Part shown: one piece after another, positions 1 through 5,219 of the stretch | How the letters are laid out: each line of letters opens with the position of its first letter | Numbering within the stretch: position 1 is the stretch's first letter | Notes under the pieces: model-generated | Databases searched by the model: none | Seen by the model: the letters and a program-made list of their open reading frames with translations, nothing else | What the model was told of the DNA's origin: nothing | Assembly (NCBI RefSeq): GCF_030065545.1 | Contig: NZ_JASJNC010000006.1 | Coordinates: 1 to 64,000 of the forward strand | Origin: Marinicella marina | GTDB lineage: Bacteria; Pseudomonadota; Gammaproteobacteria; Xanthomonadales; Marinicellaceae | Length of the DNA: 64,000 bases | Reading direction: 5' to 3' | Made by a program: the position numbers and the translations under genes

Positions 1-191
1 CCATTTCTTGTGGGTGTCTTTTGCCATGAAAAACAATATATTTCTTTATCCAATAAATGTAAGTTAATTCTGTATTTTCACTGTAATGTAAAAATTTTAT
101 TTTTAATGCAACACGATCTAATAATTTCATAAAATGCACGTTTACCCGGTAATCAGCGTAAATTAATGCATTCGTGCAAATATATCCGCCC
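1..191. other. Left edge, no confident gene
   Basis: This AT-rich stretch holds no gene I can support. Plus frame 1 is open from the window edge to a TAA at 130-132, so it could be the last 43 codons of a cassette gene cut by the window, but the composition makes this weak. A minus-strand ATG at 27 would start a protein running out of the window and lacks a convincing ribosome binding site. From about 150 the DNA becomes palindromic and leads into the first attC-like site. Confidence 0.3.
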
Positions 192-302
192 ATAACTGGA
201 TATATGTGCATACATTAAATCCCTACTTTGTAAGAAATCAATGACTTATGCTAAAATTCATGATTTCTAAGTGCATTAAAATACGCAAATATCGCGTTAT
301 AC
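192..302 (+). other. attC-like site with nested palindromes
   Basis: The left arm starts with CATAAC at 191 and the right arm ends in GCGTTATAC, core at 296-302. The arms pair imperfectly, and an inner hairpin pairs AGAAATCA near 232 with TGATTTCT near 270. A second right-arm copy runs on to 334 (TAATGCACATAT then GTTATGC), and an inverted copy lies at about 153-180. The site therefore sits in a cluster of three related palindromic arms. The boundary could be 302 or 334. Confidence 0.65.
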
Positions 303-350
303 AGCATTAATGCACATATATTAAATTGTTATGCAATACGGGAGAGTGCG

Positions 351-779
351 TTGAAATTAATACTTTCATTTCTATTGTTTATTGTTTCAAGTTCAACTTA
401 CGCAATAGGTTCAAGGGAAATCACCAGAGAAAACATTAATGAATTTGGTGCTAATTTGGAAATAAAGTATGTAAAGTTTAATGAGTGCTTTGATGTTTTG
501 GCCTCTTTTTCAAGCAAGATAACTTTTAAGGAACTAGGCCAGCGAGAGATTTGGGGAGCTTCATATGAAAGAACTAATAGTAATCTGGGGTGGCAATTAG
601 CTTCTAAAGGCACCCGAATTAAGGTGCCACTCATTGGGAAAGATGATCATCATGATCTTGGCTCTGTTTGTTTAAATCAGCAAGATCTCGAATCTGGCTA
701 CATTACAGTTGTCTATGGAGGCCCTCAAGGTTCTCCCCCTATGGTTCTAGTGTTCAAACTAAATGAATATAAGCAGTAA
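351..779 (+). CDS. Cassette protein, secreted, unknown function
   Basis: This 142-residue protein is unrecognised. It starts at a TTG preceded by GGGAGAG at 340-346 at good spacing, which decides the start. The first 18 residues form a signal peptide (MKLILSFLLFIVSSSTYA), so the product is probably periplasmic or surface-exposed. Only two cysteines are visible in the mature part (in NECFDV and GSVCLN), which could form a disulfide. The C-terminal half (SGYITVVYGGPQGSPP) reads like beta strands. It is the first complete cassette and is flanked by attC-like sites. No promoter of its own is obvious, so expression would depend on an upstream cassette promoter. Confidence 0.75.
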   Translation: MKLILSFLLFIVSSSTYAIGSREITRENINEFGANLEIKYVKFNECFDVLASFSSKITFKELGQREIWGASYERTNSNLGWQLASKGTRIKVPLIGKDDHHDLGSVCLNQQDLESGYITVVYGGPQGSPPMVLVFKLNEYKQ

Positions 780-783
780 AATG

Positions 784-899
784 CATAACAAAAGTGTCAT
801 GCCGAAGCCAAACCTTCGCTCCGTTTCGCCCCTGGCCTGCGGCCATTATAGGGGCTACACTGCGCTCCCGGTTTGGCTCGGCATACACTGGCGTTAGGG
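784..899 (+). other. attC site of cassette 1
   Basis: The left arm TAACAAAAGTGTCATGCCGA (from 785) and the right arm ending in TCGGCATACACTGGCGTTA are near-perfect reverse complements, giving a long stem with the unpaired bases typical of attC. The core GTTAGGG is at 893-899. The central part is GC-rich, in sharp contrast to the flanking coding DNA. This is one of the two clearest attC sites in the array. Confidence 0.88.
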
Positions 900-912
900 C
901 ACCACATAGAAA

Positions 913-1869
913 ATGAAAGACATTAACGAGACAATCCACGAAGCCCTATGGAGTGACCACGACAGCGAAGCTGAGTTTCCAAATCAAACTCCGCTACTCG
1001 CACACTATACATCTATCACCAACTTTGACTGCATAGTTAATGGTGATGAGCTGTGGTTTTCTAACCCGCTGAATATGAACGATTCAGATGAGCTGATTTT
1101 TGGAATGAGTCAGGGCTCTGCTGAGTTTAAAAAGAACGAGGCCTTGATCAGAGCTTGCGGAAGCGAAACGGTGTTTGCTCGGTTAATGGATATATTTGAT
1201 TATCACTTTAACCACTTCGATAAAAATCATGTTCTTGATACTTATATTTCGTGTTTTTCTCAGCATAGTGATGATGATTTCGATGGGTCTCTATCTATGT
1301 GGAGAGGGTACGGTGCTGACGGGAACGGGATTTCATTTGTTATAGATACAAAAAAAATAGAGCCTAATGAAGAATCACCAATAATTCTCGCGCCGGTAAA
1401 CTATGCCACGAATGAAGACCGTATTTCATGGATAAATCAACGAATAAACCAGCTGGCAGATTTGCTGAATGATATCGAAAAGTCGGAAGAAGTTCTAAAT
1501 TCCATAGCATGGAATTGGATTGAAAGACTTAAAGTATTTTCACTATTTACAAAACACAGAGGGTTTCAAGAAGAAAAGGAATGGAGGTTTGTATATCTTA
1601 GTGATCGAGATTCTAAGGCACACTATCCTCCAATGTTCGGCTACCATATATCGAATAAGGGGGTTGAACCAAAATTAAAATTGAAGCTAGGTCAAATACC
1701 CAGTAGTAATGTACCTCTCACACTTGAATCATTGATTGATAGGGTTATTTTGGGCCCTACTGCATCCTCTGTGCTTTCCATGAGATCTTTGGCTAGAATG
1801 CTAGAAATTAAGGGTAAGCATGGGTTAATCGAGAAAGTGCATGCATCATCAATCCCATACCGGCCCTAA
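913..1869 (+). CDS. DUF2971 family cassette protein
   Basis: This 318-residue cytoplasmic protein matches the DUF2971 family. It has an N-terminal LAHYTSI segment followed by LWFSNPLNMNDSDE (about residues 29-60), a central SMWRGYGADGNGISFVID block near 127-144, and an EEKEWRFVY block near 221. The family is widespread on mobile DNA and often found near defence genes, but its biochemistry is not established, so no function is assigned. No signal peptide or membrane segment is present. The gene starts 13 bases after the preceding attC core, and its stop codon is the TAA inside the next attC. It is the longest cassette gene in the array. Confidence 0.85.
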   Translation: MKDINETIHEALWSDHDSEAEFPNQTPLLAHYTSITNFDCIVNGDELWFSNPLNMNDSDELIFGMSQGSAEFKKNEALIRACGSETVFARLMDIFDYHFNHFDKNHVLDTYISCFSQHSDDDFDGSLSMWRGYGADGNGISFVIDTKKIEPNEESPIILAPVNYATNEDRISWINQRINQLADLLNDIEKSEEVLNSIAWNWIERLKVFSLFTKHRGFQEEKEWRFVYLSDRDSKAHYPPMFGYHISNKGVEPKLKLKLGQIPSSNVPLTLESLIDRVILGPTASSVLSMRSLARMLEIKGKHGLIEKVHASSIPYRP

Positions 1870-1924
1870 CAATGCAAATTCAACGGACGGCAAAAAGCAC
1901 CGCCGCTGATTTGCGGCGTTATGT
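1866..1924 (+). other. attC site of cassette 2 (short form)
   Basis: This compact site begins CTAACAATGCAAATT and ends TTGCGGCGTTATGT, with the core at 1918-1924. The arms pair as TAAC..GCAAAT..CGG with CCG..ATTTGC..GTTA. The stop codon of the DUF2971 gene lies inside the left box, so gene and recombination site are fused. It is about 59 bases long, near the lower size limit for attC. Confidence 0.85.
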
Positions 1925-1942
1925 TTTTAAGGAAGGGCCAAG

Positions 1943-2272
1943 TTGGAACTACTACCTTTACTCTTAAGATTTTTTGTTTTTATCTATTGTGTTAGACACT
2001 TACTAGATAATTGTAAGCCTAGAAAAACAGCACTTATTTATGCCTCTGTATACACAGTTATCAGCGTTTTATATACGGCATTTGTAGGTTCAATTTCTGC
2101 GTCTTCTTTTGTAATAATTACCGTAGGCTTCGTTTTCGATTTCTTATATTCGTATCTATGGTTTTGGTTAATGCATCGTTACAAAGTAAACAAACCTGCT
2201 TTCTATTCAATAATTGTTATTGGCATAATCATTAGCTCAGTACTCAAATTCTGGACGGTTAGTCTGCAGTAA
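1943..2272 (+). CDS. Cassette protein, small integral membrane protein
   Basis: This 109-residue protein is unrecognised. It starts at TTG, supported by AAGGAAGG at 1929-1936. Three to four hydrophobic helices are visible: residues 4-19, about 30-47, about 54-76 and about 86-103. Short basic loops (CKPRK, HRYKVNK) are consistent with an inner-membrane location. The last codons run directly into the next attC-like site. Small membrane proteins are common cassette cargo, but nothing here indicates a substrate or partner. It lacks the motifs of SMR-type or Qac-type efflux pumps. Confidence 0.72.
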   Translation: MELLPLLLRFFVFIYCVRHLLDNCKPRKTALIYASVYTVISVLYTAFVGSISASSFVIITVGFVFDFLYSYLWFWLMHRYKVNKPAFYSIIVIGIIISSVLKFWTVSLQ

Positions 2273-2284
2273 ATGTACAAAGTA

Positions 2285-2339
2285 AATAAACACACAAAAA
2301 CGCTCTCCGCAATATTTGCGGGTGGGCTTAACGTTATGT
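2285..2339 (+). other. attC-like site of cassette 3 (weak)
   Basis: The core GTTATGT at 2333-2339 is identical to the previous site's core and is preceded by a GC-rich hairpin (CCGCAATATTTGCGG at 2307-2321). The left box, AAATAAAC near 2284, is a poor match to the expected RYYYAAC, so the outer stem is weak. Its position between two unrelated genes makes it the expected site. Confidence 0.55.
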
Positions 2340-2362
2340 TTCAAAAAGGATTTTTGCACGGC

Positions 2363-2638
2363 ATGTATGCAGTCATATTTAGAGCAGAAATAAAAGAACT
2401 GGATTCGCAGTATTCAGCAATGGCTGAACGCATGAGGAATTTGGCTATAGATGAATATGGTTGTACGGAGTTTACAGCGTGCACAGAAGGAAATTATGAA
2501 ATAGCAATTTCTTATTGGCCATCTCAAGAGCATATTAAAGCTTGGCATAGTAATCCTGAGCATCAAGAAGCTCAGAAGTTGGGTAAAGAGAAATGGTATA
2601 AATCCTATCAGGTACAAGTTACGAAGGTACTTAGGTAA
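2363..2638 (+). CDS. ABM-fold (antibiotic biosynthesis monooxygenase-like) cassette protein
   Basis: This 91-residue protein resembles the ABM dimeric alpha-beta barrel family (MYAVIFRAEI at the start, then CTEFTACTEG, YEIAISYWPSQEHIKAW and HPEHQEAQ-like NPEHQEAQ). Members include cofactor-free oxygenases and haem-degrading enzymes, but many have no known substrate. The ATG at 2363 is chosen because AAAAAGGA at 2343-2350 precedes it and the family begins at MYAV. The longer frame from 2273 would read backwards through the attC-like site. It is soluble with no signal peptide. Confidence 0.85.
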   Translation: MYAVIFRAEIKELDSQYSAMAERMRNLAIDEYGCTEFTACTEGNYEIAISYWPSQEHIKAWHSNPEHQEAQKLGKEKWYKSYQVQVTKVLR

Positions 2639-2651
2639 TATGCATCATAAA

Positions 2652-2767
2652 CATAACAATTTGATCCAGTTGACGCAGCGGTCTACGCTCCTTTTTGTGC
2701 ATTCTCTGCGCTCATTGTTGCACAAAAACTCACTACAACCGCTGCGCAACTGAGCAAGGCGTTAGCT
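2652..2767 (+). other. attC site of cassette 4
   Basis: The left arm TAACAATTTGATCCAGTTGA (from 2654) continues into CGCAGCGGT. It pairs with the right arm ACCGCTGCGCAACTGAGCAA, which leads to GGCGTTAGCT with the core at 2761-2767. An inner hairpin pairs TTTTTGTGCA with TGCACAAAAA. This is a textbook attC layout and one of the two best sites in the array. Confidence 0.9.
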
Positions 2768-2777
2768 GAAGAAATAA

Positions 2778-3080
2778 ATGAATGAACATCAATACTCTAT
2801 TAAACATTTCAACCTGATGGTTGAATTAGCCTCTAAAATGGCCTCTATTCCAGCTTTAATTTTAGAGCACAGTTATACCTATGAAGCTTTTGGTTCTTGG
2901 TGGCTTACTTTAAAAAGATCAGGTAAAACTTTTCGTCTTGTATTCGATGGTAGAGATAACCGTTTATCCATAGAAGAAAGTGCAATAAACTGGCAAGAAA
3001 AAGCATCTAAGCAGCTATCCTCAAATAATGATGTTTTGGTTTTAGATACATGTTTTTCTTTAATTACAGGTTACACCTAA
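2778..3080 (+). CDS. Cassette protein, unknown function
   Basis: This 100-residue soluble protein is unrecognised. It has an alpha-helical start (HFNLMVELASKMASIP), a beta-rich centre (EAFGSWWLTLKRSGKTFRLVFDGRDNRLSIEES) and a short C-terminal segment with one cysteine. It starts at an ATG 11 bases after the attC core, with a weak GAAGAAA upstream. The stop codon TAA is the first part of the following attC-like box. The compact size and lack of transport signals suggest a cytosolic role. It is the last cassette before the conserved chromosome. Confidence 0.72.
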   Translation: MNEHQYSIKHFNLMVELASKMASIPALILEHSYTYEAFGSWWLTLKRSGKTFRLVFDGRDNRLSIEESAINWQEKASKQLSSNNDVLVLDTCFSLITGYT

Positions 3081-3160
3081 CAATTCATTGCAGTAGACTA
3101 GCGGTAAAAGTGCCCGCAACGGCTTTCCCGTCCATATAGGGGAAGCTGAATCCTAACGTC
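3077..3160 (+). other. Degenerate terminal attC
   Basis: The left box CTAACAATTC overlaps the preceding stop codon, and the right end reads AATCCTAACGTC, so the usual GTTRRRY core is altered to GTC. Inside, CTTTCCC and GGGGAAG form a local hairpin at about 3123-3145. It marks the right boundary of the array, 14 bases before the convergent prpE stop. The changed core suggests it may no longer recombine. Confidence 0.5.
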
Positions 3161-3173
3161 AAAAAAATTCACC

Positions 3174-5072
3174 TCAACCTTGAGGATACCCCAACACCGC
3201 AATCGCCTGACCAATCTCCTTTAAAATCTCTGGATCATCGATGGTGGCGGGGATGGTGTGTTCGGTGCCGTTGGCCATGGCGCGGATGGTGCCGCGGAGG
3301 ATTTTGCCGGAGCGGGTTTTCGGCAGGCGTTTGACCACTGCGACTTGTTTGAAGGCAGCCACTGGACCAATTTTTTGGCGCACGGCTTGGATCAGTTCAT
3401 ATGACAAGTCAGCTTGGCTGATGTCGGTGCCGTCTTTGGTCACCACCAAGCCCAAGGGCACTTCGCCTTTCAAAGCACAATTCACCCCCAAAACCGCACA
3501 TTCTGCAACGGCCTCATGGGCGGCCAACACTTCTTCCATGGCGCCGGTGGAGAGGCGGTGGCCAGCGACATTGATGACATCATCGATGCGACTCATGATG
3601 TACAAATAATCATCCTCGTCTTTGTAACCGGCATCGCCGGTGAGGTAATAACCCTCAAAGGCCGAGAGGTAGGAGGCGACAAAACGTTCATCGTCCTGCC
3701 ACAGGGTGGGCAGGGTGCCGGGTGGTAGGGGCAGTTTAATCACGATGTTACCCATTTCACCTGCAGCGACTTCCTGGCCTTTTGAATCAACCACTTGCAC
3801 TTTATAGCCTGGTACGGCCTTGGTCGGTGAGCCTGGCTTCACCGGAAAAGCTTCAATACCCAGACAGTTGGCCGCAATCGCCCAACCGGTTTCGGTTTGC
3901 CACCAGTGGTCAATCACCGGCACTTGGAGTTGTTGTTGGGCCCATTCAAGGGTGTCAGGGTCGCAACGCTCACCGGCCAAGAACAAGGCTTTGAAATGGC
4001 TCAAATCATGTTGGTGCAGCAGCGCAGCTTCAGGGTCTTCTTTGCGGATGGCACGAAAGGCGGTCGGGGCAGTGAACAGGGTTTTGACTTTATGTTCAGC
4101 AATGACCCGCCAAAAAGCGCCGGCATCAGGGGTACCAACGGGTTTGCCTTCGTAGATCAGGGTGGTAGAGCCGTTGATCAGGGGTGCATAACAAATGTAG
4201 GAGTGACCGACCACCCAACCAACATCAGAGGCGGCCCAAAACACTTCTCCGGGCTTAATGTCATAGATGTTTTGCATGCTCCATTGCATCGCCACAGCAT
4301 GTCCACCGTTGTCGCGCACCACGCCTTTGGGTTGGCCGGTGGTGCCAGAGGTGTACAATATATACAAAGGATCAGTGGCCGCCACCGGCACACAGGGCGA
4401 GGGCATGGCCGATTCCATGGCGGTTACCCAGTCCACGTCTCGACCTGGTTGTAGACCGGCAGTGGCTTGGGGACGCTGTAAAATCAGGCAGTGTCTGGGT
4501 TGGTGCGTGGCGATCGCAATGGCTTGATCTAACAGTGGTTTATAGGGAATCACTTTGGCCACTTCGATGCCACAAGAGGCGGATAAAATCGCTTTGGGTT
4601 TGGCATCATCAATGCGGGTGGCCAATTCTTTGGCAGCAAAACCACCGAACACCACCGAATGAATGGCGCCGATGCGAGCACAGGCCAGCATGGCGAATAT
4701 GGCTTCAGGCACCATTGGCATGTAAATGATCACGCGATCGCCTTGAAAGACACCCAAGTCATGCAATACCCCGGCCAAGCGCGAGACTTGGTCTAAGAGT
4801 TGTTTGTAGCTGTAGGTGGTTTTTACGCCAGTGACTGGGCTGTCATAGATCACTGCTGCTTGCTCACCGCGGCCTTGTTCGACGTGCCGATCAACGGCGT
4901 TGTAACAGGTGTTGAGCTCACCGCCGGTAAACCAGCGGTAGAATGGTTTGTTGCTGTCGTCCAGGACCTGCTGCCAGGGTTTATCCCAGTGAATGTGTTG
5001 GGCTGCATCGGCCCAAAATGCTGTTGGGTGGTTGGCGGCTTGTTGAAAAGTGGTGCGGTAGTTGTTACTCAT
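3174..5072 (-). CDS. prpE: Propionyl-CoA synthetase (acetyl-CoA synthetase family)
   Basis: This 632-residue AMP-forming acyl-CoA synthetase makes propionyl-CoA from propionate, ATP and CoA through an acyl-adenylate. Visible motifs are the phosphate-binding YTSGTTGQPKG near residues 240-250, DHWWQTETGW, the hinge SRIDDVINVAGHRLSTG, and the catalytic lysine in TRSGKILRGT near the C-terminus. The segment LSASCGIEVAKVIPYKPLLD is characteristic of PrpE/ACSS3 rather than Acs. The start at MSNNYRTTFQQA matches family N-termini; an upstream ATG at 5096 adds eight residues, and neither has a clear ribosome site. No prpBCD genes are nearby, so the fate of propionyl-CoA is not shown. It is convergent with the cassette array. 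Confidence 0.9.
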   Translation of the reverse strand: MSNNYRTTFQQAANHPTAFWADAAQHIHWDKPWQQVLDDSNKPFYRWFTGGELNTCYNAVDRHVEQGRGEQAAVIYDSPVTGVKTTYSYKQLLDQVSRLAGVLHDLGVFQGDRVIIYMPMVPEAIFAMLACARIGAIHSVVFGGFAAKELATRIDDAKPKAILSASCGIEVAKVIPYKPLLDQAIAIATHQPRHCLILQRPQATAGLQPGRDVDWVTAMESAMPSPCVPVAATDPLYILYTSGTTGQPKGVVRDNGGHAVAMQWSMQNIYDIKPGEVFWAASDVGWVVGHSYICYAPLINGSTTLIYEGKPVGTPDAGAFWRVIAEHKVKTLFTAPTAFRAIRKEDPEAALLHQHDLSHFKALFLAGERCDPDTLEWAQQQLQVPVIDHWWQTETGWAIAANCLGIEAFPVKPGSPTKAVPGYKVQVVDSKGQEVAAGEMGNIVIKLPLPPGTLPTLWQDDERFVASYLSAFEGYYLTGDAGYKDEDDYLYIMSRIDDVINVAGHRLSTGAMEEVLAAHEAVAECAVLGVNCALKGEVPLGLVVTKDGTDISQADLSYELIQAVRQKIGPVAAFKQVAVVKRLPKTRSGKILRGTIRAMANGTEHTIPATIDDPEILKEIGQAIAVLGYPQG

Positions 5073-5219
5073 GAGCGCGAAAAGTGTCTGATACATTCAT
5101 TATGAATGATGTTTTAGCAGCAGGCCATTAGACTTTAGGCGCAGTGATTTATTGCTTGATTCACGGTTTTTTGATGGATCAAACTTTATTCTACCTCAGA
5201 GAAACAAAGGTATAAGACC

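Follow-up and report, generated by a model that had tools for sequence, protein, structure and literature searches.

How is an array of gene cassettes to be understood when no complete integrase gene lies beside it? Integrons are normally described as one attI site next to one intI gene, and the locus studied here departs from this layout. The window, that is, the whole stretch of DNA analysed, comprises the first 64 kb of contig C20 in the draft genome of Marinicella marina (code G000). It carries, near its start, five small ORFs on the plus strand (351-779, 913-1869, 1943-2272, 2273/2336-2638, and 2778-3080), which run up to a core gene for propionate/acetate--CoA ligase (acs/prpE; an acyl-CoA synthetase). 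The latter is located on the minus strand at 3174-5096, faces the array, and has uvrA as a neighbour in two relatives. An earlier note on this DNA had described five consecutive small genes on one strand that stop against a conserved gene, with a content other than an antibiotic-resistance set, and our analysis confirms these points. We favour, with a probability of roughly two thirds (about 0.68), a reading drawn from sequence comparison in which the genome holds one integron with several attI/Pc platforms: the integrase encoded on contig C2 would serve them in trans, and the window array would be an attI-headed satellite with a truncated intI.

The array begins at its own attI

The true left boundary of the array lies at about position 131, and both the attI site found there and the adjacent remnant of intI were overlooked in the earlier note. 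The attI module (131-328, plus strand) spans the whole intI-attI intergenic region, from just past the intI start codon to the crossover, written G|TT, in the core GTTATGC at 328-334. Up to this core it is 99.4% identical to the attI of contig C2. It directly adjoins the first cassette, and its core matches the R'' box of the first attC at 7/7 positions. On the other side, the minus strand at 1-193 encodes residues 1-64 of an IntI, a TIGR02249 fragment that is 100% identical to the C2 IntI; the true start of this gene is probably M22 at 128-130. In the overlapping contig C19, intI continues to residue 91 and there runs into a REP/BIME-like repeat. Looking for intI to the left, as the earlier note had advised, yields a 5' stump at the window edge and in C19 and no complete gene at either place. 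An attI of its own heads the array, and the 5' end of intI adjoins this site; we therefore see a head rather than a "tail", as the earlier note had called it, and the array is present in full.

A Pc-like promoter candidate (TTGTAA-18-TAAAAT with an extended -10; 228-257, plus strand) is located within a conserved stretch of the module and may be active; the promoter scan as a whole gave no excess over shuffled background. An Rfam search of the first 6 kb of the window returned no match above gathering.

The last 207 bases of C19 are 100% identical to window positions 1-207, and uvrA, at the end of C19, is a close neighbour of acs in two relatives (G017 and G003). Based on this overlap and adjacency, we conclude that C19 and C20 are joined in the chromosome. 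The resulting order is uvrA, an ORF of 177 aa, an older attI (C19:272.9k), two cassette genes, repeats, the intI stump, attI, five cassettes, and acs. In G017 and G003, other genes are present between uvrA and acs and no cassette array was found, so that the array is an insertion relative to these two genomes and not, as the earlier note had allowed for, a gene run conserved in related chromosomes. The end of contig C1 and the start of contig C12, compared for a similar join, showed no overlap.

Three well-formed attC sites among five cassettes

To gather candidate attC sites, other loci were searched for R''/R' boxes and hairpins; the long and short sets were aligned separately. The seeds, chosen from neighbouring loci by our own fold-based selection, show the classical attC fold in both alignments, with 11-13 compensated pairs, and the two covariance models were built without any window sequence. 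Applied to the 64-kb window, these held-out models identified exactly three strong sites and otherwise one weak match (bit scores are the better of the two models; E-values are rough, with short calibration, and the gap to the next match, at 16.5 bits, is large). The three sites fit the models in their R''/R' and L''/L' pairing, extrahelical base, and variable middle. Searches with the pattern TAACAA...GCGTTA were used only as a cross-check. A bare palindrome pattern for attC was dropped, as its reversed control gave more matches than the forward search. The earlier note had seen an attC-like palindrome behind each of the five genes and had named scores below threshold at all sites as the outcome that would count against an integron; three sites pass, behind cassettes 1, 2, and 4, and only a remnant and a degraded site are found behind cassettes 3 and 5.

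All cassettes lie on the plus strand. Cassette 1 (329-893; ORF 351-779) encodes a protein of 142 aa with an apparent signal peptide and no family, and its 5' core GTTATGC complements the R'' GCATAAC of its attC at 783-899 (54.6 bits, E 1.5e-11). Cassette 2 (894-1918; ORF 913-1869) encodes a DUF2971 protein of 318 aa (PF11185; Pfam 4.6e-11) and ends in an attC at 1864-1924 (45.7 bits, E 5.7e-9), whose R'' CCCTAAC complements the core GTTAGGG. The same protein shows weak similarity to the PADLOC candidate PDC-S31 (5.2e-6), making a role as a phage-defence cassette possible. Cassette 3 (1919-2333; ORF 1943-2272) encodes a hydrophobic protein of 109 aa and, as judged from model scores and sequence comparison, is without a working attC. 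Even in unfiltered searches, the scores at the ends of these two incomplete cassettes, 3 and 5, were at most 9.3 and 5.5 bits, respectively. At the end of cassette 3, an attC 3' half persists (~2290-2339), which aligns with the 3' half of an attC at locus L122 over ~48 columns with a score of 29 (shuffled maximum 20.5). Cassette 4 (2334-2761; ORF 2336-2638) encodes an ABM-like protein (PF03992, 4.3e-5, just over the curated cut-off) and carries an attC at 2651-2767 (65.6 bits, E 2.4e-14). Cassettes 3 and 4 have the same core, GTTATGT, and the R'' of this site, ACATAAC, fits it. As cassette 3 has no working attC, the two are probably fused and would move as one unit ending in the attC of cassette 4. 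The terminal cassette 5 (2762-3158; ORF 2778-3080) encodes a protein of 100 aa with no family and ends in a degraded attC (~3077-3160) that retains a 6/7 R'' box, ACCTAAC, and has neither the GTT nor an R'. Two of the five products can be named by domain (DUF2971 and ABM-like), each on a weak or domain-level match, and the others are nameless.

A single complete integrase on another contig

The only complete intI in the M. marina genome is found 79 kb into contig C2, together with its own array. The C2 IntI scores 389.6 bits against TIGR02249 (cut-off 265), aligns to the solved integron integrase 2A3V, and contains the tyrosine-recombinase motifs; judging by these features, it is intact. The earlier view that no complete integrase lies next to the window array is borne out, and its classification as a CALIN is formally right, as the array is an attC cluster without a complete integrase nearby. 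Window positions 1-333 match the intI-attI start of the C2 integron with 99.4% identity (two mismatches); the match ends at the attI core, and past the crossover the cassettes of C2 and C20 are unrelated.

The C2 integron (L014 7002-10304) is located beside radA, and at the same gene M. litoralis contig C12 (L117 6692-7248) has an attI with cassettes and no intI. Besides unknowns, the C2 array (L014 10787-13890) encodes a signal peptidase S26 and a LysE-type translocator. A degenerate intI stump is found at C1:582k of M. marina, and a second intI in M. litoralis (L116 7680-8642) has two in-frame stops over the matched stretch.

attI modules recur across the genus

A 334-bp attI query identified nine attI-like stretches in the M. 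marina genome and eight in M. litoralis (G012). A profile of 19 copies added two in M. marina, where the copies number about ten, and others within the genus; applied to 13 less closely related genomes, from the family and the order, the profile found no attI copies. Beyond the window, the sequence was read in the stretches around candidate loci. Most copies in M. marina and M. litoralis are without intI, and intI-less copies also occur in other members of the genus. In all five intI-bearing cases, the start codon of intI and the crossover lie 196-199 bp apart, giving a module of ~198 bp. Across the 19 copies in the alignment, conservation sets in at a common TGCAC motif, and the intI-less copies differ in their left flank. 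Two copies (G012:507k and G019:C4) are 91-100% identical to an intI-bearing module inside this edge and match it at background level outside. We also considered whether the attI copies begin at a G|TT crossover; their left junctions, where examined, do not bear this out.

At well-preserved loci, the cassettes that follow these modules obey a simple core rule. All 17 such loci examined, which come from five genomes, have a first attC whose R'' is exactly the reverse complement of the core of attI (7/7; shuffled mean 2), with the qualification that for one locus, lit_79, the attC was placed by a motif search and does not count as independent. Twelve of these loci have no complete intI. Such matching is the trace to be expected if an integron integrase had inserted cassettes at those attI sites. 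Within the M. marina genome, 11 of the 12 genome-wide attC matches fall inside attI-headed loci. The eight weaker attI-like copies behave differently: an exact fit of core and R'' is found at one and a near fit (5/7) at another, and the remaining six lack a nearby attC with a matching R''; the two in M. marina are each followed by one small gene and no attC. Given these failures, the older attI copies are mostly relics. For the M. litoralis arrays, the absence of the array at the compared sites is clear, and the exact empty sites cannot be aligned, the intergenic regions being too diverged.

Clusters or single attC sites with no detectable attI are also present, at the start of contig C12 in M. 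marina (L148 528-631) and at L149 6250-8527 and L150 3505-5458; two of the M. litoralis attC matches are of this kind.

A proposed single integrase for several platforms

A single intact integrase and about ten docking sites in one genome suggest that one enzyme feeds several platforms. At the window locus, intI has been cut down to its 5' end, with attI and the probable Pc staying in place. The C2 IntI would then recombine circular cassettes, through their attC, into any attI module at G|TT, and we infer that it uses these sites in trans. At each module, the cassette acquired last would come to lie first and be driven by the promoter of that module, such as the candidate at 228-257, and one enzyme would create several "first positions" in one chromosome. 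As a bolder and more tentative proposal, to which we assign somewhat less than even odds, the attI/Pc region as a whole would form a discrete unit of ~198 bp, copies of which would have reached many sites in the chromosomes of Marinicella and its close relatives, so that several cassettes at once could hold an expressed first position. In the favoured reading, the modules would owe their spread to a process at the DNA level and not to many separate integrons decaying by vertical descent. The near identity (99.4%) of the attI sites in C2 and C20 could also stem from gene conversion.

Among the other explanations, the best placed, if in our view an unlikely one, is that attI is carried as the 3' end of delta-attI-type cassettes, with IntI excising a circle that ends in attI in place of attC and inserting it into a different array or genomic site to seed a platform. 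Laboratory work shows such movement by IntI1 (PMC12901181), and tandem attI sites within one array are found in C19/C20, at 1041k/1046k and 1181k/1183k of G012, and at C1:464k-466k of M. marina, where three partial sites are each followed by a gene. In M. litoralis, moreover, a 322-bp segment consisting of the ppc 3' end and attI is repeated with 92% identity at the ppc locus and in the array of the second intI (L116 9876-10197; L120 6337-6658), and it ends at the attI core. The examined left junctions, however, do not coincide with the G|TT crossover, including that of C19/C20, where the layout is otherwise delta-attI-like, and several abut REP/RAYT-like repeats.

These repeats point to a second, slightly less probable account, in which IntI had no role in spreading the attI segments and the copying was due to REP/RAYT-type elements or to ordinary homologous recombination. 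REP/BIME-like palindromes (GATGGGCGGAGCCCATCCTAC) adjoin several attI copies (L008 ~960-1550, L114, and L151). REP-like palindromes are found at the C19 junction, C1:272k, C1:464k, and C20:131k, and a RAYT-like sequence is present at G012 1046k. Yet such repeats are common between genes in these genomes, and not every attI copy has one.

Less credible again is the view that these loci are ordinary degraded integrons, that is, several complete integrons were acquired or duplicated, intI was lost in each, and the arrays are dead remnants. CALINs have indeed been proposed to be degraded integrons (PMC9024848). The intI stumps are of unequal length (91 aa in C20/C19, degenerate at C1:582k), the second intI of G012 contains stops, two of the five window attC sites are broken, and the older attI copies are relics. 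On this view, however, it is hard to explain why about ten copies with differing flanks have a left edge in common, just upstream of the start codon of intI; this argues against independent deletions, as these would not end at the same base. The two copies that resemble an intI-bearing module inside this edge only are equally difficult to accommodate, as is the C20 attI, which is nearly identical to that of C2 and yet followed by other, well-formed cassettes. Finally, an assembly artefact, in which the window attI belongs to the C2 integron and contigs were misjoined, is very improbable: the window does start at a contig end inside a repeat, but two positions ahead of the cassettes distinguish C20 from C2, the cassettes that follow are different, and the uvrA-acs neighbourhood in two relatives backs the C19-C20 join.

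Relation to known integron systems

With sedentary chromosomal integrons, the window array shares attI, attC structure, one-strand cassettes of unknown function, and a likely Pc, and C2 provides a complete example of the same lineage; it differs in that intI is a 5' stump, several attI platforms occur per chromosome, and the arrays are short. Multi-locus CALINs are known in Xanthomonas (PMC12444791), and like these and those defined by IntegronFinder (PMC9024848), the Marinicella arrays are attC clusters without an integrase at several chromosomal loci. Unlike them, they start with a conserved attI module that can be recognised as such. Outside class 1, attI sites escape detection by IntegronFinder (PMC9024848), and the distinction between attI-headed and plain CALINs would therefore be missed. 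Cassettes inserted at attG sites likewise lie away from the main integron (Loot et al. 2024, as cited in PMC11023631); going by that citing account, attG sites are not attI, whereas the Marinicella sites each have a whole attI region. In the open-access literature, to which our search was confined, we came across no account of whole attI modules in scattered positions, and a text search there returned no paper pairing Marinicella with integrons.

If the platform reading is true, CALINs of this kind would be live satellites and not dead remnants, and the expression of several fresh cassettes at once in one genome would be explained. The about ten natural attI variants would also help to define a non-class-1 attI.

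Movement of delta-attI-type cassettes is known for class 1 and class 2 integrons (PMC12901181), and the repetition of attI inside an array beside genes is common to those and to the Marinicella loci; here, by contrast, it is mostly the whole ~198-bp region that recurs, at scattered sites and at the head of arrays with canonical attC. At C1:464-466k of M. marina (L113 6593-8331), the three successive partial attI sites are 60-95 bp long, each followed by a small gene and only the last by a matching attC, and they look like natural delta-attI-type cassettes.
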